A DNA stretch of 64,000 bases from Streptomyces sp. A 4/2. Lineage in GTDB: Bacteria > Actinomycetota > Actinomycetes > Streptomycetales > Streptomycetaceae. Below the pieces are notes generated by a model. That model saw only the letters and a program-made list of their open reading frames with translations. It was not told where the DNA came from and ran no database searches. Of this stretch, positions 54,515 through 64,000 are shown piece after piece (position 1 is the first letter of the stretch; every line of letters starts with the position of its first letter). A program made the position numbers and the translations under genes. The stretch lies in contig NZ_CALNVW010000019.1 of NCBI RefSeq assembly GCF_940670765.1, positions 62,001 through 126,000 of the forward strand. Direction: 5' to 3'.

Positions 54515-55648
<1,134 letters not shown>

Positions 55649-55829
55649 GAGCGTGTGCTCCTTCACCGGCAGGAACGTGCCGGACGATCCGAGTAAAGGT
55701 GAGTGGTGTAGTCCACATAGGTGAACTGAAACGAGACGGTACCTGGCCGTTTGCGGTATGTCAGTAGTTCCGGGCCGGGGAAATTTTCGACTTGGTCACG
55801 TCCGCGGTCCGGTTAGAATGCTGCGACGC

Positions 55830-55903
55830 GCCTCCTTAGCTCAGCTGGCCAGAGCAACGCACTTGTAATGCGTAGGTCATCGGTTCGAATCCGATAGGGG
55901 GCT
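55830..55903 (+). tRNA. tRNA-Thr (anticodon TGT)
   Basis: 74 bases with all four arms: acceptor GCCTCCT/AGGGGGC, D-arm GCTC, anticodon stem ACGCA/TGCGT around CTTGTAA (anticodon 55864-55866), T-loop GGTTCGAATCC. Discriminator base T. CCA is not encoded. Confidence 0.97.
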
Positions 55904-55909
55904 CCGGAG

Positions 55910-56064: not shown

Positions 56065-57399
56065 TCAGGACGGGAGCGATTCCGTCCGCGCACGCGCCTT
56101 TTCCAGGTCACGTACCAGGGGTGGGGCGCACAGGCCGAGCAGGATGAACAGTGCTGCCAGGACCAGCCACCCGGTCACCGCGGCGCCGACGATCAGCGAG
56201 GTCATCAGCCAGGGGCCGGTGAACTGCTGGAGTCCACGCCCGAGGGAGAAGACCGCCTGGTATTCGCCCTGCCGGTCCGGCCGGGCGAGGCCGAAGGACA
56301 GTCCCCACCCCGCGGACGCCTGGTACAGCTCGCCGCACGCGAGGATCAGTACGCCGCCCAGCAGAACCGCGCTGTCGAAGAGCCTGCCGTGGTTCCCACT
56401 CAGCGCGAACACCAGGCAGGACGCCCCCAGCAACCAGCCCGCCCGGCGCAGCATGCGGGCCGCTCCGGCGGGGGTTCGCGCGCCTCGGCTGACCGTGACC
56501 TGGAAGAGGAGCACCAGGACGGTATCGAGGGTCAGCAGGGCCGACACCATGAGGGCGGGAGCGTCTGTACTGGTCACGATCCACAGCGGCAGGCCGACGG
56601 TGAGCAGCGGGTTGTACAGCTCCAGCGCCCCGCAGGCCAGGGCGACCGCGACGTAACGCACGTCCCGCAGTGCCGAGTTGCGCAGCAGACCTCCCGCCTC
56701 CTCGCCGTCCGGGCGCTCCGAGGTATCGACGTCGGCGAGGATTTCTTCCGGTGCCCTCGCCGGTGTCCCCGCCGGTACCTTCACCGGTGTCTTCAAGCCC
56801 AGGAGCAGTGCTACGGAGACCAGTTGGATGGCGGCGGTGGCAAGGAACATGGCGTACAGAGCGGTCGCGCTGTCGGCTGCCAGCGCGACCCCGGCCAGCG
56901 CGGCACCTCCCAGGAAGCCCAGGTTGAAAAGGCTGCGCATCTGCGCGCTGACCCTGAGCCGTTGGTCCGCGCCCACCAGGTCGTTGGTCAGCGACGCCTG
57001 TAGGGCGCTCGCGGAGTTCTCCAGCACCGCGACAGCGCAGGCGACAGCTGCGAACCCGGCGAAATTCTCCACCAGGCAATAGGCGGTGAAGCAAGCGGAG
57101 GCGAGGAGGAAGTTGGCCGTCAGTACCCGGCGCGGACCGTGCCGGTCGGCGAGCCTGCCGATCGGCACGGTACAGACCAGCCCGCAGAGCCCGGCGACCG
57201 ACAGTGCGAGACCGACGCGCTGTGCGGGAATGCCGATGGTCCGGGTGAAGAACACCGCGCTGGAGGTGAGGAAGATCCCGAGCCCCAGGGACTGTACGAG
57301 GGCGAGACCACCGAGTCGGCGCGCGGGTCCGGACGCTGGGAGGGTTTCCCGCAGCCAGGTGCGCAGGGCGGGTCCGGGCCTGCGGTCGAGGCCGGTCAC
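56065..57399 (-). CDS. MFS exporter of the hydrazine-type cluster
   Basis: 444 residues from GTG at 57399, overlapping the ATP-grasp stop by 4 bases. About 12 helices with MFS loop GRLADRHGPRRVL (about 74-86) and LALVQSLGLGIFLTSSAVFF helix 1. Being the last gene of a coupled operon beside two ligases, it probably exports or gives self-resistance to the product. It ends just after tRNA-Thr and its terminator. Substrate inferred only. Confidence 0.85.
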   Translation of the reverse strand: MTGLDRRPGPALRTWLRETLPASGPARRLGGLALVQSLGLGIFLTSSAVFFTRTIGIPAQRVGLALSVAGLCGLVCTVPIGRLADRHGPRRVLTANFLLASACFTAYCLVENFAGFAAVACAVAVLENSASALQASLTNDLVGADQRLRVSAQMRSLFNLGFLGGAALAGVALAADSATALYAMFLATAAIQLVSVALLLGLKTPVKVPAGTPARAPEEILADVDTSERPDGEEAGGLLRNSALRDVRYVAVALACGALELYNPLLTVGLPLWIVTSTDAPALMVSALLTLDTVLVLLFQVTVSRGARTPAGAARMLRRAGWLLGASCLVFALSGNHGRLFDSAVLLGGVLILACGELYQASAGWGLSFGLARPDRQGEYQAVFSLGRGLQQFTGPWLMTSLIVGAAVTGWLVLAALFILLGLCAPPLVRDLEKARARTESLPS

Positions 57400-58703
57400 G
57401 GTGCCGTCCCCAGGGACGCCCCCGGGGCCGTGCCGGAGGCATCCACGAGTTCGGTCCGCAGGTCGTAGCGGTCGAGCACCGTGTGTACGGCATCCAGCAC
57501 GCCGGCCGGGTCGTCCCCCCTGAACCGGAAGGTGCCACAGCCGTTGTCGTAGCCGCCGGGGCTGGTGATGGTCCACCCGACGGGCGGCAGTTCCTCGTGG
57601 TACACCTCGGGGACGGTGGCCCGCAGCGAGGTGCGACGGGTGACCCGGCTGGGCAGCCGGCCGGGTGTCGGGTAGATGAGCCATCCGCCGGTGGCGCCCT
57701 GGGGGCCGGCACCCGGCTGCCACAGCGGAGGCAGTCCGATGGCTGCCCGGAAGGCCTCGGCGAACAAGTCGATGCCGAAGAGGTCGGCATGGAGGAACGG
57801 CACCTGGGCCCCACCCGGCCGCAGACCGACCTCCAGGAACACGAGTTCACCGTCCGGGCGCCGGATCAGCTCCAGGTGGAAGGCGCCGTCGGTGAGCCCG
57901 AGGGCCCTGAGGCAGCGTTCGGCGAACTCGGTGAGTTCGGCCCGCTCCCGCCCTTCGCCCAGCAGTACGGACCCGAGCGGCCGGCCGTGCGCGTAGTCCA
58001 GGCAGGTGTTGACGTACCGCGACGCGGTGACGAAGTGGAAGCTGTGGGAGCGGTAGACGCCATCGACGTGGAAGACGGCGCCTTCTATGTACTCCTCGCA
58101 CTCGTACGCGGCAGGGTCGACGCCACTCAGCGCCTGCTCCAGCTGCTCCGTGCTCTCGACCAGAGTGACTCCCTCGGAGCCGGCCGAGGCACGGGGTTTG
58201 AGGATCAGGGGGAGGCTCCCGAGTGCCTCGATGACCGCTTCGGCCCGGAGTCCGCCGCCCGAGCCGCCCGAGCCGCCCGAGCTGCCCGAGCGGTCCAGGG
58301 GGCAGAAGTCCGGTACGCGCAGTCCGGCACCGCGCACAGCGCTCTTCATGGTGGGCTTGTCCTTGAACCGCCGTACCAGGTCGAGGCCGTGTCCTCCGCG
58401 TACGCCGAGTCCGTCCGAAAGCAGGGCGGCGGTGAGGATGTCGTACTCGGACTGCCCGAAGACCGCATCGGGGGTCCCGTGCCGGCCCACCAGCTCGCGT
58501 ACGACAGGCAGGACGTCCTCGTGGGCGAGGCTGTCGAGCACCCGGATCTCCACGGCCTCGCTCTTCCTGAGCGGGGCCAGGCCGCCGGGGGTGGTGAGGT
58601 ACACCATCCGGCAAGGGGTGCCGTCGAGGAAGCGCTGGTACTCCCCGAACTCGTCACCGGAGCGGTTGAGTACGACGTACAGCGGAGCCGGGCCGGCGGT
58701 CAT
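57396..58703 (-). CDS. ATP-grasp ligase 1
   Basis: 435 residues, ATG overlapping the MetRS-like stop (ATGA). ATP-grasp fold: VRRFKDKPTMKSAVRGAGLRVP (central Lys), SLPLILKPRASAGSEGV, EEYIEGAVFHVDGV, and the Mg2+ block FHLELIRRPDGELVFLEVGLRPGG. A Ser/Gly insert (SSGGSGGSGGG) near residue 140. Such enzymes link a carboxylate to an amine through an acyl phosphate (amino acid ligases, e.g. BacD or dapdiamide type). Substrates unknown; joining a hydrazine or amino acid unit is inferred. Confidence 0.87.
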   Translation of the reverse strand: MTAGPAPLYVVLNRSGDEFGEYQRFLDGTPCRMVYLTTPGGLAPLRKSEAVEIRVLDSLAHEDVLPVVRELVGRHGTPDAVFGQSEYDILTAALLSDGLGVRGGHGLDLVRRFKDKPTMKSAVRGAGLRVPDFCPLDRSGSSGGSGGSGGGLRAEAVIEALGSLPLILKPRASAGSEGVTLVESTEQLEQALSGVDPAAYECEEYIEGAVFHVDGVYRSHSFHFVTASRYVNTCLDYAHGRPLGSVLLGEGRERAELTEFAERCLRALGLTDGAFHLELIRRPDGELVFLEVGLRPGGAQVPFLHADLFGIDLFAEAFRAAIGLPPLWQPGAGPQGATGGWLIYPTPGRLPSRVTRRTSLRATVPEVYHEELPPVGWTITSPGGYDNGCGTFRFRGDDPAGVLDAVHTVLDRYDLRTELVDASGTAPGASLGTAP

Positions 58704-60340
58704 GAGCGCGCCCCCGATCGCAGCGCGAGCGGCATGCAGGCGTCGAGGTCGTCGGCTTCGGCCCGTACGAAGCCGGGGGCGGCCGGTGTCCCATCGGGTG
58801 GCGTCGGCCTGAGGAAGGCCGCCGCTGTGGGCTCTCCGGTGCCACCGAGCCGCAGCCAGAGCTGCTCGGCGAGGTCCGGGACCACCGGGAACCCGAGCAG
58901 GCACACACCCTTGAGCCACCAGTAGGCACCGTCCTCGGCCGAGTGGATCAACGCGTCGTCGGCGCACCAGCGGTCGAGTGCGGCGACCGCGCGGGCCGTG
59001 GAGATCCGGGAGGAGTCCAGGGCCGCGGACTGCTCGGCGAGCAGGGATTCCAGCAGGTCGGCGACGGCGGGTGCGGGGGGACGGGGAGGCCCGTCGGGCA
59101 GGAGCGTCCAGGCGGTGTCGAGGCGCTTGCCGAGGCCATCGGCGAGCGTCACGCGGGCAGTTGTGAGGAAGTCCGCCGACTCGAAGCTCGCAGGGCCCGA
59201 CTCCAGATCGGCGCGGGCGAGGAAATATCGCACCGTGTCGGCGCCGATGGTGGGTGCTGCCGCGATGTCCGAGGCCCAGATGGCATGGCGGGCGCTGGTG
59301 GAGAACTTGCGGCCGGCCAGCCGGTAGAAGTGGTTGACGAGGCACCGGTCGTAGGGCTTCATGTCGCCGTGCAGCAGGCTGGTGCCGACGATGCCGACCA
59401 GGGTGGGGATCACGTTGTCGATGCCCAGGGTGGTGATGGTGGTGACCCCGGAGTCCGGGTCGAACGCGTTCACTCCGGTACCCGACAGCTGTCCGTGGAC
59501 GGCGCCGGCGAGCCGCGCGAACATGAAGATGCCGGCGTAGGGGAACAGCGCGTGCGGTACGCCCGCCTCGGGCGCGGGCAGTGGTACACCCCACGTCTGC
59601 GGCGCGCTGAGCCGGAGCGTCAGGCCGTCCCGCTCCAGGAAGCGCGCCACGCTCCGCCGGTAGCGGCGGGCGATGTCCAGGCGCGCGAGTGCGGCATCGA
59701 GGACGTCGCGTTCCGGCACGCGCAGGAAGAGGCTGGATATCTCCCGCCAGGTCAGTGGCCCCTCGTCGAGCAAGGGGCGCGGTTCGACGACGGATTCGGG
59801 CAGGAAATGGGCACTGCACTCCTCACAGAAGTAGCTGGCCACTCCGGCGCCGCACTCGGGACAGCGGCCCAGCAGCCAACCGCCCACGACCCAGCGGTCC
59901 GACGCGGCGCAGTACGGCACGCGCTCGGTACGGCTCAGCACGGCGCCCCTGTCCTTCAGGCGCCCCGACGCGGTGGCCACCTCCGCTTCGAAGAGATCCC
60001 GCCAGGGCTCCTGGTCCGGGCTGATGAAGGTGTCGATGCCGATGCGGAGGGCGGCCAGATCGTCCTGGATCCGCCGGCCGTAGCGGGCGGCGACCTCGCT
60101 GGGGGTGGATCCCTCGGCGTGGGCCGTCAGGGCGACGTACGACTCGTACACATCGCTTCCGGTGATCACGAGCGGCAGGTCGCCCCGTACACGCAGATGG
60201 CGCGCGATCATGTCGGCCCACAGGAACGGTCCGCCGATGTGGCCCAGGTGAAGGGGGCCGTTCGGAGTGGCCTCGGGTGGTACCAGCAGGTAGTGCTTCG
60301 GGACGTGTGCGTCCCCCGTCAGCAGTGCGCTCACGTTCAC
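58700..60340 (-). CDS. stand-alone methionyl-tRNA synthetase-like protein (hydrazine synthetase type)
   Basis: 546 residues from GTG at 60340 overlapping the FAD oxidase stop. Class I aminoacyl-tRNA synthetase of the MetG branch: HLGH at 31-34, a CPEC...CEEC zinc knuckle (160-175), and KFSTS at 345-349 where MetRS has KMSKS. The anticodon-binding tail is short and divergent. In Spb40, PyrN and Tri28 (recalled), a MetRS-like domain fused to a cupin activates an amino acid and esterifies it to an N-hydroxylated amine before N-N bond formation. Here the cupin is a separate gene. A duplicate housekeeping MetRS is less likely given context. Confidence 0.75.
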   Translation of the reverse strand: MNVSALLTGDAHVPKHYLLVPPEATPNGPLHLGHIGGPFLWADMIARHLRVRGDLPLVITGSDVYESYVALTAHAEGSTPSEVAARYGRRIQDDLAALRIGIDTFISPDQEPWRDLFEAEVATASGRLKDRGAVLSRTERVPYCAASDRWVVGGWLLGRCPECGAGVASYFCEECSAHFLPESVVEPRPLLDEGPLTWREISSLFLRVPERDVLDAALARLDIARRYRRSVARFLERDGLTLRLSAPQTWGVPLPAPEAGVPHALFPYAGIFMFARLAGAVHGQLSGTGVNAFDPDSGVTTITTLGIDNVIPTLVGIVGTSLLHGDMKPYDRCLVNHFYRLAGRKFSTSARHAIWASDIAAAPTIGADTVRYFLARADLESGPASFESADFLTTARVTLADGLGKRLDTAWTLLPDGPPRPPAPAVADLLESLLAEQSAALDSSRISTARAVAALDRWCADDALIHSAEDGAYWWLKGVCLLGFPVVPDLAEQLWLRLGGTGEPTAAAFLRPTPPDGTPAAPGFVRAEADDLDACMPLALRSGARS

Positions 60341-61434
60341 GTTCTCCCATCGAGCAGTTTCAGCGCGTCCTCGGCCATGGCCGGGGCGAGCCGGTAACCG
60401 GACCCTGATCCACCGATCGCCATCACCACGCCGTCGTCACCGGCTGTGTCCACGAGAGGCAGATGGCCGGGTGTGAAGCAGTCGCTGAAGACCCGCCCGC
60501 CGGACAAGTGCGGGAGGAATCCCGGCACATGGCGTGCGAGCAGGGCGCGGGCGAGCGACCGGTCGCGGGCATCGATGACCAGGGGGCCGTCCGGGCCGCG
60601 GTCCCAGTCGGGTGACGTGACGCTGAGAATCCAGTGGCCACGGTTGTGGTCCGGCAGCAGAAAGGCGTCCTCGTCCTCAAGGACGAGGGCGGGTGCGTGC
60701 GGCGCGGGCCGCGACCTGACATGGAAGGCCACCACCTTCTTGACCCGGGCGCCCCGGTCGCGGGCTGCTCGCGCCACCGGTCCTTCCAGGGCCCACGGGC
60801 CGGGGGCGATGACGGTCCGGTCCGCGGTGACGCGGCTTCCGTCGGTGGCGACCAGCTCGATGTGCTTTCCGACGCGGCGTACGGACGCGACCCGGAAGCC
60901 CTCCCACAGGGCGCGGCCGGGTGCGCCGAGCGCCTGGTCCAGCAACAGGTCCGTCAGCGACTGCGCGGAGCCGACCGTCATCGGAGGGGAGGCCAGCAGC
61001 ACCTCGTCGTCACCGTGGGCGAGCCCGGGAAACGTCTCGGCGAGCATGCGCCGCTGCCGGGGAGTGGGAGGGCAGGTCCGTCTGCCCCCGACCAGACTCT
61101 CGTCGAGGGCTGCCGTACCGTCCCGGTTCACCAACCAGTAGGTGTCGACCGGTTCTCGCGGTACGGCAGGCAGTTCGGCCGAGAGTTCGGTGAACAGAGC
61201 GGTACTGCGCGCGGCGAGCGCCCGCTGGGCGCTGCCGCGTCCGGTCGGTGTGTCGAACCCCGCGGACAGGCGGGTGGCGCCCACCCCGCGGGTGGCATGG
61301 GTGAGGGCGAGTACGCGCCGGCCGGGGTTCTGGCGCACGGCGTAGTACAGGGTCAGGGCGCCCACGATGCCGATGCCGACGACGGCCAGGTCGTAGTGCG
61401 GGACGCCACCGGACACAGCGGAGCGCTCAGCCAC
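60337..61434 (-). CDS. FAD-dependent DadA/DAO-type oxidase
   Basis: 365 residues from GTG at 61434; overlaps cupin by 8 and MetRS-like by 4 bases. FAD motif VVGIGIVGALTLYYA (Gly20-x-Gly22-x-x-Gly25), DAO-family interior (APGPWALEGPV) and C-terminal FAD contact GGSGSGYRLAPAMAEDAL. DadA-like oxidases such as Spb39 (recalled) oxidise the N-N linked adduct to release a hydrazino acid. The gene position between cupin and MetRS-like supports that role. Confidence 0.8.
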   Translation of the reverse strand: MAERSAVSGGVPHYDLAVVGIGIVGALTLYYAVRQNPGRRVLALTHATRGVGATRLSAGFDTPTGRGSAQRALAARSTALFTELSAELPAVPREPVDTYWLVNRDGTAALDESLVGGRRTCPPTPRQRRMLAETFPGLAHGDDEVLLASPPMTVGSAQSLTDLLLDQALGAPGRALWEGFRVASVRRVGKHIELVATDGSRVTADRTVIAPGPWALEGPVARAARDRGARVKKVVAFHVRSRPAPHAPALVLEDEDAFLLPDHNRGHWILSVTSPDWDRGPDGPLVIDARDRSLARALLARHVPGFLPHLSGGRVFSDCFTPGHLPLVDTAGDDGVVMAIGGSGSGYRLAPAMAEDALKLLDGRT

Positions 61435-61789
61435 GGGGCACCGGCCACCAGAAGGAGAAGACGGTCAGTTCCTCGCCCCGGTCGGCGAAGGCTTCGTGGA
61501 CCGCGTGCGAGGGGAAGCCGACCGTCGAGCCGGGGCCGATGGGCAGTTGCTCCCCATCGACCACCAGCGTGCCGTGTCCGGTATGGACCACCCAGATCTC
61601 CCGTACCTCGTGCACATCGGGGGAGGATGTTCCGCCGGGCGGCACGGTGAAGCGGGCCATCTTGAACGGGACCGAGGGGAAGCACGACCGGGCCAGGTCC
61701 GCCTCGGCGACGGTCACACCGTCCGGCTCGGTCTCCGTGGGCAGGAAGGGCAACTCGCTCCGATGGGACGCGTGTTGATCGGACGTCAT
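61427..61789 (-). CDS. small cupin protein (hydrazine-forming type)
   Basis: 120 residues from ATG at 61789. One cupin barrel: metal motif 1 is Asp58-x-His60-x3-Glu64 (SSPDVHEVREIWVV), motif 2 is PSHAVHEAF (His95/His98). In hydrazine synthetases a zinc-binding cupin domain rearranges the hydroxylamine ester to an N-N bond. The N-terminal 45 residues lack a signal peptide. It is co-transcribed with the oxidase and MetRS-like genes. Confidence 0.78.
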   Translation of the reverse strand: MTSDQHASHRSELPFLPTETEPDGVTVAEADLARSCFPSVPFKMARFTVPPGGTSSPDVHEVREIWVVHTGHGTLVVDGEQLPIGPGSTVGFPSHAVHEAFADRGEELTVFSFWWPVPRG

Positions 61790-61859
61790 GGGATGTACCT
61801 CGTCTCGCCGGGGACGCGATCGGCCTTCTCCGTGTGAGGGTTCGCGCGTGCCTGAGCCG

Positions 61860-63122
61860 TCAGTTCAGGGCGATGGCGTCCCCCAGCGCCCGCCAGCGAT
61901 CCGACGCGCTCCGGGGGGAGTCCGCGGTGAACAGGGCGTGGCCGATGCGCGAGCGGCAGTCCTCGACCGCGGGAATGGATTCGCCGGATGCGAAGTAGAG
62001 CGAGGTCTCAGTGACCCCGGGCAGTTCCGTCATGTCCTGCCAGCCCGTCAACTCCCGGTAGGACGTACGCCCTTCGGCGGAGAAGAAGCGAATGCCGGCG
62101 CTCTTCGCCGACGGAGCGGAGAAGACTCCGGCCTCTTCGGGGGCGAGTCCGAGGGACGCGGCGATCGCCATCCTGGGAAGGCTGACTCCGGTGACGAGCC
62201 GCAGCAGTTCCACGATCCGGTCCCCGGGCAGCCGTGCGCCGATCTCGATGAGGACCGGCCCGTCGGCGGTCAGCCGCAGCTCGCAGTGGAACGTGCCCCC
62301 TGTCAGGCGCACCGCGCGGACGACGGCGCGGACGTACGCCGTAACGGCTTCCAGCGTGTTGTCGTCGACCTCGGCCGGGGTGAGGTGGCCCATCTCCACG
62401 AAGTCCGGCTCGGGACCGAGCAGCGTGCGGGTGAGGGCGATGACCGTGGCTTCCTCGCCGGGCAGGACGTATCCGTCGGCGCTGAACTCGGGGCCGTCGA
62501 CGTACTCCTCGACGAGCACACGGTGCTCGTGCGGCTGCCCCATGTCCGGGACGGGGTCGGTGACCAGGCGGTGGAACGCGGCGGAGAGCCGGTCCATGTC
62601 GTCCGCCCGGCTGACATGGATGCTGCCGGAGCAGGCCACCGGCTTCATCACGCAGGGGAACCCGACATGCGCCGCTGCCGCGCGCAGTTCCTCGTCGGTG
62701 GTGGCTTGAGCGAAGCGCGGAGTACGCAGCCCCGCCCCGGCGACGGCGGCCCGCATGACGCTCTTGTCCCTGACGCGGTCGACGGTGTCCACTTCCAGCC
62801 CCGGCAGGCCCAGCGCGTCGGCGACGCGGGCGGCCGCGGGCACGTAGATGTCCGATCCGGCCAGGACCGCTTCGAAGGGCTCGCGCCGGTGCAGGTCCCG
62901 TACGGCCGCTTCGAGCGCGGCCTGGTCATTGGTCTCCACGGTGAGGACCGTCTCGGCCGCGGCCCGTACGGCGTCGGGGAGCCGGCGGTCGCCGGTGTCC
63001 GCCGAGGCCACGACCACCCTCAGTCCCATGCCGGCTGCGACACCGATCAGGGTGGTTCCTCCGGAAGAGGCGGGTTCGACCACGAGGACGTGTGCCGGGT
63101 GACGGGAACGCAGGGGTGACAA
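61860..63122 (-). CDS. ATP-grasp ligase 2
   Basis: 420 residues from a TTG at 63122 (GAGAGG seven bases upstream). Rossmann-like start (VLVVEPASSGGTTLIGVAAGMGLRVVVAS), ATP-grasp Lys block VRDKSVMRAAVAGAGLRTPRF, FPCVMKPVACSGSIHVSRADD and metal block FHCELRLTADGPVLIEIGARLPGDRI. It resembles BacD/dapdiamide-type L-amino acid ligases, so a peptide or amide bond is expected. It is only distantly like ATP-grasp ligase 1, so they probably act on different bonds. Confidence 0.87.
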   Translation of the reverse strand: MSPLRSRHPAHVLVVEPASSGGTTLIGVAAGMGLRVVVASADTGDRRLPDAVRAAAETVLTVETNDQAALEAAVRDLHRREPFEAVLAGSDIYVPAAARVADALGLPGLEVDTVDRVRDKSVMRAAVAGAGLRTPRFAQATTDEELRAAAAHVGFPCVMKPVACSGSIHVSRADDMDRLSAAFHRLVTDPVPDMGQPHEHRVLVEEYVDGPEFSADGYVLPGEEATVIALTRTLLGPEPDFVEMGHLTPAEVDDNTLEAVTAYVRAVVRAVRLTGGTFHCELRLTADGPVLIEIGARLPGDRIVELLRLVTGVSLPRMAIAASLGLAPEEAGVFSAPSAKSAGIRFFSAEGRTSYRELTGWQDMTELPGVTETSLYFASGESIPAVEDCRSRIGHALFTADSPRSASDRWRALGDAIALN

Positions 63123-63263
63123 GGCAGACCTCTCGGGTCAGGGGCGGGTCGGGCAGGGTGCGCGGACGGCCGGGGCACGGGCGGTCCGCGACGCGGCACC
63201 GCGAGGAGCGCGGGGAGGCGTCGCCGTGGCGGACCGCGCGGCCCGCCACGGCGTATCACCGGT

Positions 63264-63923
63264 TCAGCCACCGCTCGGACTCACGGTGAGTCGGGCGGTG
63301 CCCCGGCCCTTGCCCTTGACGGAGACGTCAAGGCGGCCCACCTCGCCGGTACGGCGGACATGGGTGCCCCCGCAGGCGATGGCCGCGTGCCCCTCCACCC
63401 GCCACTCCCACCGGCCGGCGGCCAGGTCGACGACGTACCGCTCGATGGGCAGGTCGGCCTCGGTGAGGGCGGCCAGCCGGGCGGTGAGAGCGTCGGCGGC
63501 GGGCCGCTGTGCGGCATCCCAGACGACATCGAGCCGTGCTTTGTCCGGCCGGATCTCGCCACCGCTGTCCTTCTGCCCCTCGCCGTACTCCCCGACGAGG
63601 GCCAGCCACAGCAGATGCTGCGCGCTGTGCATCCGCATCGTGGCGTATCTGCGGTCCCAGTCGATGCGCCCTGTCACCTGCCGGCCCACGCGCAGGGGTT
63701 CTCCCGACCACTCCACCCGGTGCAGGACACTGTCCCGGCCGGGCGACACCACCGTATCGACGACCCGGTGACCGCCGAGGTCTCCCTGATCTCCCACCTG
63801 GCCACCGCCCCGGGCGTAGAAGGCCGTGGAGTCGAGTTCGACCACGTCGTCCTCGACCCCGGTCACGTTCGCCGTGAACTCGCTGAGGTAGGGGTCCTCA
63901 CGGTGAAGTTCATGTGTGCGCAT
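63264..63923 (-). CDS. AlaX-type alanyl-tRNA editing protein
   Basis: 219 residues from ATG at 63923 after GGAGAGGAC. Conserved Zn2+ ligands HxxxH (His99, His103 in MHSAQHLLW) and CxxxH (Cys184, His188 in CGGTHV) are all present, with the GG(x)GQVGDQG loop near 39. AlaX proteins deacylate Ser- or Gly-tRNA-Ala. As the first gene of the cluster in this window, it may clear misacylated tRNA or hydrolyse a cluster intermediate. The upstream part is off the right edge. Confidence 0.87.
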   Translation of the reverse strand: MRTHELHREDPYLSEFTANVTGVEDDVVELDSTAFYARGGGQVGDQGDLGGHRVVDTVVSPGRDSVLHRVEWSGEPLRVGRQVTGRIDWDRRYATMRMHSAQHLLWLALVGEYGEGQKDSGGEIRPDKARLDVVWDAAQRPAADALTARLAALTEADLPIERYVVDLAAGRWEWRVEGHAAIACGGTHVRRTGEVGRLDVSVKGKGRGTARLTVSPSGG

Positions 63924-64000
63924 ATGTCCTCTCCTTTCCTTTCCCGGTTCGTGTCCCACGATCCGTACGACGGGCATCGGGGGAACGGGTCCGGGCAGCT

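Follow-up and report, generated by a model that had tools for sequence, protein, structure and literature searches.

A candidate hydrazine-forming gene cluster with ATP-grasp ligases and an AlaX-type editing protein in Streptomyces sp. A 4/2

The window, i.e., the whole 64,000-nucleotide stretch of Streptomyces sp. A 4/2 DNA analysed here, contains seven minus-strand genes that an initial annotation made from the sequence had described as AlaX-type, ATP-grasp, cupin, FAD oxidase, MetRS-like, ATP-grasp and MFS genes, and all of them were confirmed at the coordinates of Table 1, each as an intact single frame with one terminal stop. From the cupin through the MFS gene, neighbours overlap by 4–8 bases (4 bases between ATP-grasp 2 and the MetRS-like gene), as in a translationally coupled operon; unlike these overlapping genes, AlaX is set off from its neighbours by gaps of 90 and 141 bp. 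Within the window, the proposed span (56065–63923) is correct; the full cluster extends to about 71010 and is about twice as long. Indeed, a Fe/2OG oxygenase, an N-monooxygenase (NMO), a LysE protein and an MFS protein are found past position 64000, upstream of AlaX, together with a divergent Lrp regulator and an M20 peptidase, and the whole cluster comprises 13 genes. At the other end, an ABC gene and tRNA-Thr were found adjacent, with no cluster genes, in all seven same-genus regions (25 genomes searched), and a 74–77% identical copy of MFSb occupies the same position in 8/8 Streptomyces loci of the threonine-aldolase type described below. Rfam searches at the gathering threshold returned the tRNA-Thr and an msiK element alone, both outside the cluster, PADLOC run on three proteins gave nothing beyond a generic 2OG match, and domain searches detected no NRPS, PKS or carrier gene or domain among the 13 cluster genes.

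Table 1. Features at the left boundary and within the window part of the cluster (positions in the window)
Feature	Coordinates	Strand	Evidence and remarks
tRNA-Thr (TGT)	55830..55905	+	ARAGORN, Rfam tRNA; marks left boundary, outside pathway
MFS exporter (MFSb)	56065..57399	-	Pfam MFS_1 1.6e-20
ATP-grasp ligase 2	57396..58703	-	ATP-grasp_4 2.3e-08; core gene in 16/16 core loci
MetRS-like enzyme	58700..60340	-	tRNA-synt_1g 1.2e-36; LHLGH at 30, KFSTS at 345
FAD oxidase, DAO family	60337..61434	-	Pfam DAO 1.7e-22; core gene in 16/16 core loci
Zinc cupin, free-standing	61427..61789	-	best PDB match 5UQP/RHS1 4.8e-17
ATP-grasp ligase 1 with L-amino acid ligase C-terminal domain	61860..63122	-	ATP-grasp_4 1.1e-25, LAL_C2 1.5e-08
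AlaX-M-type tRNA-editing hydrolase, 219 aa	63264..63923	-	2e1b AlaX-M 5.2e-23; NCBIfam AlaXM 3.6e-42

The MetRS-like protein carries both class I ATP-binding motifs, LHLGH and KFSTS. Its best NCBIfam model, NF008863 (named methionine--tRNA ligase), gives 456.9 bits, below the curated cut-off of 551, and on the MetRS model for which a protein encoded elsewhere in the genome (G000:C27) reaches 480.6 bits, above the cut-off of 336.35, the cluster protein obtains 108.7 bits. A housekeeping identity was therefore ruled out by the presence of this separate full MetRS and by the sub-cut-off score. The grouping with housekeeping MetRS that the initial annotation had named as evidence against its reading was not observed, since the protein and its counterparts from 16 related loci (the core loci defined below) form one clade of their own (support 100/100). 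It is 27% identical to its partner from the RHS1 cluster, the one validated partner compared, from which it is separated by the midpoint of the tree, where long branches make the placement unreliable. Because of this low identity, we infer rather than assign from sequence both the amino acid used and the formation of an N-N bond; by analogy, the enzyme would make an aminoacyl-O-hydroxylamine ester.

The cupin does not belong to an unrelated family either, as its closest PDB entry, 5UQP, is RHS1, a demonstrated N-N-forming cupin (PMC8664883). Its ligands D58, H60, E64 and H98 align with D63, H65, E69 and H103 of RHS1, and the four zinc ligands, including the essential Glu, are kept in the window and in 16/16 core loci. 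This Glu is described as invariant among the N-N-forming cupins studied, and the window cupin is a putative N-N bond former. An N-hydroxylase, which it had been suggested to seek past position 64000, was found adjacent, 1 kb past the window end (Lys_Orn_oxgnase, E 3.9e-93), and shares 44% identity with its RHS1-cluster counterpart. It falls outside the clade of the core NMOs, the window being the sole locus whose NMO is displaced from the core order. The NMO has been swapped in the Streptomyces sp. A 4/2 genome, and its substrate may differ because it lies outside the core clade. The DAO-type oxidase, by analogy, may perform a cleavage of the Spb39/Apy10 type. Altogether, these observations support the hydrazine (N-N) cluster proposed from the sequence.

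The RHS1 cluster (Rhodococcus jostii RHA1 plasmid pRHL1, L101) was compared through a 98–100% identical annotated copy from Rhodococcus sp. DK176 (L098). Like the present cluster, it has a free-standing cupin (35% identity), a MetRS-like protein, an NMO, an MFS protein (32% identity) and two ATP-grasps; unlike the present cluster, it has a saccharopine dehydrogenase in place of the DAO enzyme, in addition to a lysine 2,3-aminomutase, AMP-binding and carrier proteins, while its incomplete annotation lists no AlaX and no Fe/2OG gene. The RHS1 system forms the N-N bond from N6-OH-Lys and Glu, according to PMC8664883. The hydrazinoacetic-acid pathways (s56-p1, Spb38-40; triacsin, Tri26-28; azaserine; N-nitroglycine) share with the present cluster an NMO, MetRS/cupin functions and a DAO-type oxidase (PMC13274452), but with enzymes reported as two-domain MetRS/cupin proteins where the window cupin is free-standing. 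According to the same source, azaserine and nitroglycine biosynthesis relies on carrier proteins and an NRPS, whereas the present cluster has two ATP-grasps, AlaX and the Fe/2OG enzyme instead; an azaserine/nitroglycine type was rejected, given that none of the 13 genes encodes an NRPS or carrier domain. The actinopyridazinone cluster (Apy9-11), likened here via a review, resembles the present cluster in its N-hydroxylase, hydrazine synthetase and FAD oxidase, and it shows that an oxidase of this kind can cleave on one or the other flank of the N-N unit. The negamycin cluster was also compared by description, with KinJ/NegJ as heme N-N enzyme, beta-lysine formation and N-methylation; a negamycin type (N-N by NegJ) was rejected, as the 13 genes match other Pfam families and include no aminomutase or methyltransferase.

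A six-gene core (ATP-grasp, NMO, cupin, oxidase, MetRS-like, ATP-grasp) is collinear in 16/16 other core loci of Streptomyces and Streptosporangiales, which is beyond chance. Core loci are here every locus found with MetRS-like identity of at least 49%, and the 16 correspond to 15 distinct ones since the MetRS-like proteins of L072 and L045 are identical. Small loci lying at the coordinates of others (L010 and L011 at L037 and L039) or inside them (L012 in L047; L050-L052 in L073, L071 and L072) were counted once. Note that gene orders were established by homology to open frames, because the GC-based gene caller mispredicts some genes. MetRS-like matches of at most 38% were excluded from the counts, including L075 and L076, two loci where relatives of the cupin, DAO and ATP-grasp proteins also occur but are arranged differently. 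We read the window cluster as a hydrazine-forming cluster of a family for which we found no description, the parts of whose product would be joined by ATP-grasp ligases.

The window AlaX matches 2e1b over residues 3-212, a span that covers the whole AlaX-M length with its N-terminal part, and carries the zinc motif H99/H103/C184/H188 (HxxxH + CxxxH), as do the AlaX-M proteins of Pyrococcus (2e1b, 9iuw), which, unlike the window protein, are to our knowledge not located within a biosynthetic cluster. In the PDB it matches entries for AlaX and alanyl-tRNA synthetase, and it scores 144.7 bits on the NCBIfam AlaXM model, below the equivalog cut-off of 300. Archaeal AlaX-M is described as a quality-control enzyme for Ser/Gly-tRNA(Ala) in the review PMC11295145. 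Deacylation by AlaX-M proteins involves recognition of G3:U70. In the genus, AlaX-M is rare, being found in 4/291 genomes, the present one included (E<=1e-20). AlaX of either type is present in the window and in 8/16 core loci, and the MetRS-like protein of the window groups with those of these eight loci (100/100); the AlaX gene adjoins that of ATP-grasp 1 both here and in seven Streptosporangiales loci. The divergent AlaX of the relatives is a homologue of AlaX (hhalign probability 97.9, E 3.4e-13), and its top Foldseek matches are AlaX-M 9iuw and 2e1b.

In addition, all nine AlaX loci, window included, show a Fe/2OG gene or at least a sequence matching such a gene: seven of the eight AlaX-bearing relatives encode a TauD-type protein of at least 52% identity, while L043 shows an 82-residue match alone, at the locus edge. 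AlaX-M occurs with a WelO5-like hydroxylase in the present cluster, and the divergent AlaX, found mainly in Streptosporangiales, is accompanied by a clavaminate-synthase-like enzyme. Thus, an AlaX-type protein and a Fe/2OG oxygenase accompany the hydrazine core in at least two versions of different subfamilies, an observation new here. Separate gains are the simplest explanation since both proteins belong to different subfamilies in the window and in Streptosporangiales, and the link counts about two independent gains. The eight other core loci, all close Streptomyces relatives, carry a threonine aldolase and show neither AlaX nor Fe/2OG oxygenase; four AlaX/oxygenase profiles gave no match at E<=0.1 in the flanks covered, and Pfam detected no tRNA-editing or Fe/2OG family in ten flanking proteins (eight from L036, two from L035), the other flanks being covered by the profiles. 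AlaX is therefore dispensable for the core chemistry. We found no paper joining alanyl-tRNA editing with a biosynthetic gene cluster, which is weak evidence as subscription papers were mostly outside the literature covered.

Our preferred explanation, which we consider probable as a whole, is that the cluster makes a small ATP-grasp-assembled peptide or amide with a hydrazine unit and uses AlaX for self-protection. In this scheme, whose chemical steps are borrowed from published relatives, the NMO would N-hydroxylate the side-chain amine of a basic amino acid; a second amino acid would be ATP-activated by the MetRS-like enzyme and, with no tRNA involved, esterified onto the hydroxylamine; the zinc cupin would convert the unstable ester into the N-N bond; and the DAO-type oxidase would cut one C-N bond and free a hydrazino compound. 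The two ATP-grasp ligases would couple it with other amino acids, and the MFS and LysE proteins would export the product. The Fe/2OG enzyme may hydroxylate an amino acid building block into a hydroxy-amino acid that could be mischarged onto tRNA, and AlaX would be a dedicated trans-editing hydrolase clearing tRNA mischarged with the hydroxy- or hydrazino amino acid; co-occurrence suggests this functional link between both proteins. Taken by itself, the protective role of AlaX, drawn from the same co-occurrence, is a nearly balanced call that falls slightly on the doubtful side. More tentatively still, AlaX types of different subfamilies may have been recruited at least twice into this one cluster family, each with a different Fe/2OG hydroxylase, as self-resistance that frees tRNA of the hydroxylated or hydrazino amino acid which the producer itself makes. 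FthB, the fluorothreonyl-tRNA deacylase of Streptomyces cattleya, works by trans-editing in the way proposed for AlaX, being encoded by the producer of a toxic amino acid that it strips from tRNA. However, its fold family (ProXp-ST1/INS) differs from that of the window AlaX, and it was rejected as an AlaX relative since PMC11295145 places it with ProXp-ST1.

Other explanations differ from this scheme in the core chemistry or in the role of its companions. The MetRS-like/cupin pair of the clade might have shifted to another reaction, e.g., the formation of an N-acyl-hydroxylamine (hydroxamate) with no N-N bond, as the separate clade and low identity to the validated protein would allow and as the amide shunt that forms without an active cupin illustrates (PMC8664883); nevertheless, the conserved cupin ligands, Glu included, and the DAO-type enzyme retained in 16/16 loci make this highly improbable. 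For the relatives, it could be argued that the threonine aldolase does no more than provide the MetRS-like enzyme with glycine and that the Fe/2OG enzymes act on the completed product, with no mischarged hydroxy-amino acid involved. Glycine is indeed the reported substrate of Spb40, Tri28 and DobE, and G173 and G626, the two aldolase-type genomes tested, each encode another copy of the aldolase besides that of the cluster, but such a supply does not explain why AlaX and Fe/2OG enzymes repeatedly occur together, and we judge it unlikely.

As for AlaX, an ordinary alanyl-tRNA editing gene may have drifted by chance beside the cluster, a view to which the gaps around it and the general role of AlaX proteins on Ser/Gly-tRNA(Ala) (PMC11295145) lend some weight. 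Given the rarity of AlaX-M in the genus, a different AlaX subfamily inside half of the core clusters, and the placement of the gene, co-directional with the two pathway genes that flank it, chance is quite unlikely. AlaX could also act within the pathway, as a post-transfer editor for a tRNA-free synthetase, by hydrolysing stray aminoacyl esters or adenylates that the MetRS-like enzyme makes: the O-aminoacyl ester is reactive, chemically akin to an aminoacyl-tRNA ester and subject to the off-pathway amide shunt (PMC8664883), and AlaX repeatedly adjoins ATP-grasp 1. Yet eight loci with the same MetRS-like/cupin pair give no AlaX match and the window AlaX retains its full AlaX-M length, which leaves this role very unlikely.

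If the self-resistance proposed above is true, the toxicity of the product would be mistranslation after uptake and cleavage of the peptide (a Trojan-horse amino acid); a protective AlaX would point to a mistranslation-based antibiotic and make cluster AlaX genes a signpost for toxic amino acids. The family itself is compact, conserved and testable, with hydrazine formation predicted to feed ATP-grasp ligases and not NRPS/PKS lines, and its members differ naturally in having an aldolase or an oxygenase, in the presence of AlaX, in the number of ATP-grasps (two or three) and in a swapped NMO, which offers a built-in comparison.

Concerning the oxygenase of the window, WelO5-type halogenases have HxG/HxA as their halide site. 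The best fold match of the window protein is WelO5 G166D, and HxD is found in 12/12 aligned members of its WelO5-like family, so that a halogenase reading was rejected. The aldolase-type genome G173 encodes a 39% relative of this oxygenase about 320 kb away from its cluster, and the oxygenase family therefore serves elsewhere too.

All seven minus-strand genes that the initial annotation had read as a hydrazine biosynthetic set (AlaX-M-type protein, ATP-grasp 1, cupin, DAO-type FAD oxidase, MetRS-like protein, ATP-grasp 2 and MFS transporter) were recovered where it had placed them, with one open frame apiece, and successive genes overlap by 4–8 bases from the cupin through the MFS gene. Past base 64000 of the window, six further genes were found in the 8.3 Mb source genome. 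A nearby N-hydroxylase had been set beforehand as a test of that reading, and in its favour a lysine/ornithine N-monooxygenase (NMO) gene lies just past the window end. Note that the earlier NMO start overlaps the stop of the LysE gene, and that the real start of the Fe/2OG oxygenase is probably farther inside the frame, because most of residues 1–68 are modelled poorly.

Features beside and beyond the window genes (continued window coordinate = position on contig C19 minus 62000 = position in locus L006 plus 61999)
Feature	Position	Strand	Match
ABC ATPase gene	54515-55666		
msiK RNA	55652-55707	-	RF01747
tRNA-Thr(TGT)	55830-55905	+	
Fe/2OG oxygenase	64014-64997	-	Pfam WelO5 5e-08
Lysine/ornithine N-monooxygenase	64994 to 66367 (66289 if later start)	-	Lys_Orn_oxgnase 3.9e-93
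LysE/RhtC-type exporter	66364-66999	-	4e-36
MFS metabolite symporter (MFSa)	67202-68548	-	
Lrp/AsnC regulator	68655-69650	+ (divergent)	AsnC_trans_reg 4.8e-18
M20 peptidase/deacylase	about 69703-71010	+ (divergent)	3.6e-28; NF005913 574 bits (cut-off 382)

Among 177,635 distinct PDB sequences, the top match of the window cupin was 5UQP (E 4.8e-17), named in PMC8664883 as RHS1, the N-N-forming cupin of Rhodococcus jostii RHA1. According to the same text, RHS1 forms the N-N product from an O-aminoacyl-hydroxylamine ester, itself unstable, and needs each of Asp63, His65, Glu69 and His103; these positions are D58, H60, E64 and H98 in the window cupin, with identical residues in 16/16 core loci. 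The MetRS-like protein (motifs LHLGH and KFSTS) indeed stands apart from housekeeping MetRS, as initially supposed: with the housekeeping model (cut-off 336.35) it reached 108.7 bits, versus 480.6 for the genuine MetRS of the genome on contig C27. Its top NCBIfam model, NF008863, is also named methionine--tRNA ligase, and the cut-off of 551 was not reached (456.9 bits). In a tree of 49 rows, the window protein and the 16 core loci formed one clade (support 100/100). The partner in the RHS1 cluster shares 27% identity with it and lies on a long branch at the opposite side of the midpoint root, and therefore substrate specificity is not transferable from that partner.

Relatives came from two genome searches and one collection scan. 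In the genus search, 26/295 genomes matched at E<=1e-40, and E<1e-100 was reached only in four (the source genome G000, G173, G229 and G035). Core loci, i.e., every locus recovered at a MetRS-like identity of 49% or more (n=16, 15 distinct), comprised eight from Streptomyces (L035-L041, L073; 80–83%), seven from Streptosporangiales (L042-L046, L071, L072, the last two placed by tree; 52–54%) and L047 from G035, of the same genus as the window (49%). The order ATP-grasp, NMO, cupin, oxidase, MetRS-like, ATP-grasp was conserved in all 16, while L042 and L047 each hold one additional ATP-grasp, and thus the assembly step varies. Relatives of M20, Lrp and MFSa were observed side by side solely in L042 and L043.

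In the MetRS-like tree, the window clusters with the eight Streptomyces loci (100/100). It has a 70 bp gap and no NMO between ATP-grasp 1 and the cupin; its NMO stands upstream instead, outside the clade of the 16 core NMOs (96/94) and nearest to those of loci L102 and L104 (99/98), the window row being flagged as a long branch. In these two loci, the NMO adjoins a PLP enzyme, presumably cystathionine-gamma-synthase-like as judged from the start of its sequence, which is followed in L102 by a 2163-residue AMP-binding, NRPS-like frame. Threonine aldolase follows the MFS gene in 8/8 close relatives (the aldolase-type loci), and the window cluster, which has no aldolase, carries AlaX and the Fe/2OG gene instead. 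The cluster aldolase is a second copy in both aldolase-type genomes tested (G173 and G626), with 71–72% identity to the copy elsewhere; G000 and G035 have one aldolase each, outside the cluster (66% with stops within the match, and 72%, respectively).

Along its entire length, the window AlaX aligned with the AlaX-M structure 2e1b (5.2e-23), and it has the zinc motif H99/H103/C184/H188. A divergent AlaX-type protein, barely recognised by sequence libraries (two of the eight scanned), occurs in 8/16 core loci, namely the seven Streptosporangiales loci and L047. As judged by profile comparison with the window AlaX group (probability 97.9, E 3.4e-13), PDB sequence matches (limited to 2e1b, 8.2e-4, and 9iuw, 0.49) and predicted fold (model pLDDT 71.7; Foldseek 9iuw 4.8e-11, 2e1b 5.7e-11), it is an AlaX homologue. 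It was found in genomes G035, G310 and G445 and not in the whole genomes G000, G173, G229 and G626 (E<=1e-5); in the flanking sequence covered for the eight aldolase-type loci, neither AlaX nor oxygenase profiles (two each) matched at E<=0.1. AlaX-M relatives with 44% identity to the window AlaX were also seen in two other Streptomyces genomes (L105, 3971-4711, minus strand; L107, 9021-9758, plus strand). Both adjoin a PLP enzyme that we take to be PatB-like (Aminotran_1_2 in L105; read from the start of the sequence only in L107), together in L105 with a GHMP kinase, presumably PduX-like, and these settings possibly represent a second type of AlaX-bearing cluster.

A TauD-type oxygenase with an HTE motif accompanies the divergent AlaX in 7/8 loci (52–100% identity to the L042 protein); the eighth, L043, shows just an 82-residue, 37% match at the locus edge. 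The two scanned resemble clavaminate synthase, GntD and VioC, with scores below those cut-offs. The window oxygenase belongs to a different subfamily, with the WelO5 fold yet with HxD, the hydroxylase form, in 12/12 members aligned out of 15 genomes matched. Its relatives occur in 14 other genomes (of 291, E<=1e-20); the three annotated neighbourhoods held no core cluster, with an NMO relative in one. In G173, which is of the aldolase type, about 320 kb separate this relative from the cluster. At least two versions of the AlaX and Fe/2OG pair, of differing subfamilies, thus accompany this core, most simply as separate gains. Given this repeated pairing, we propose a link between AlaX and the oxygenase, which is a co-occurrence argument from about two events.

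The chemistry proposed for the window cluster is of an already known kind. In the proposed pathway, the NMO would hydroxylate a side-chain amine, the MetRS-like enzyme would activate and then esterify a second amino acid, the cupin would make the N-N bond, and the oxidase would cut one C-N bond, possibly on either side, because Spb39 and Apy10 differ in cleavage side. The ATP-grasps would form amide bonds and the transporters would serve export. The Fe/2OG enzyme may be the source of a hydroxy-amino acid, and AlaX may keep tRNA free of this compound or of the hydrazino acid. In the relatives, the aldolase may either form or break down a beta-hydroxy amino acid, or merely supply glycine. According to PMC11295145, known AlaX substrates are Ser- and Gly-tRNA(Ala), and FthB is a deacylase known for fluorothreonine. 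The RHS1 cluster is likewise flanked by two ATP-grasps, and the pair is thus not unique to the window family. Searches of mostly open-access literature gave no earlier description of a family built on ATP-grasps that also carries AlaX and an Fe/2OG enzyme.

Among related clusters, the RHS1-type L098 (10324-11424) has its cupin and NMO separated by a MupA-like luciferase monooxygenase, with a lysine 2,3-aminomutase preceding the cupin. L103 (genome G139) is a distinct cluster of MetRS-like, NMO, cupin, DAO and aminomutase-like genes. In L048 and L074, where an NMO adjoins a MetRS-like gene, no cupin was recognised (E<=1e-4), and the MetRS-like family possibly serves a further purpose there.

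Concerning the genomic site, the ABC gene neighbours tRNA-Thr in 7/7 same-genus regions fetched (25 genomes searched), and none of these held cluster genes within roughly 11 kb beyond them. The gene at 76409 in continued window coordinates follows the tRNA at distances of about 2.4 kb (G005) and about 5.9 kb (G004), with no counterpart seen in the remaining five regions. The cluster therefore sits next to a conserved tRNA, in a stretch of variable content. The msiK RNA lies upstream of the ABC ATPase gene.
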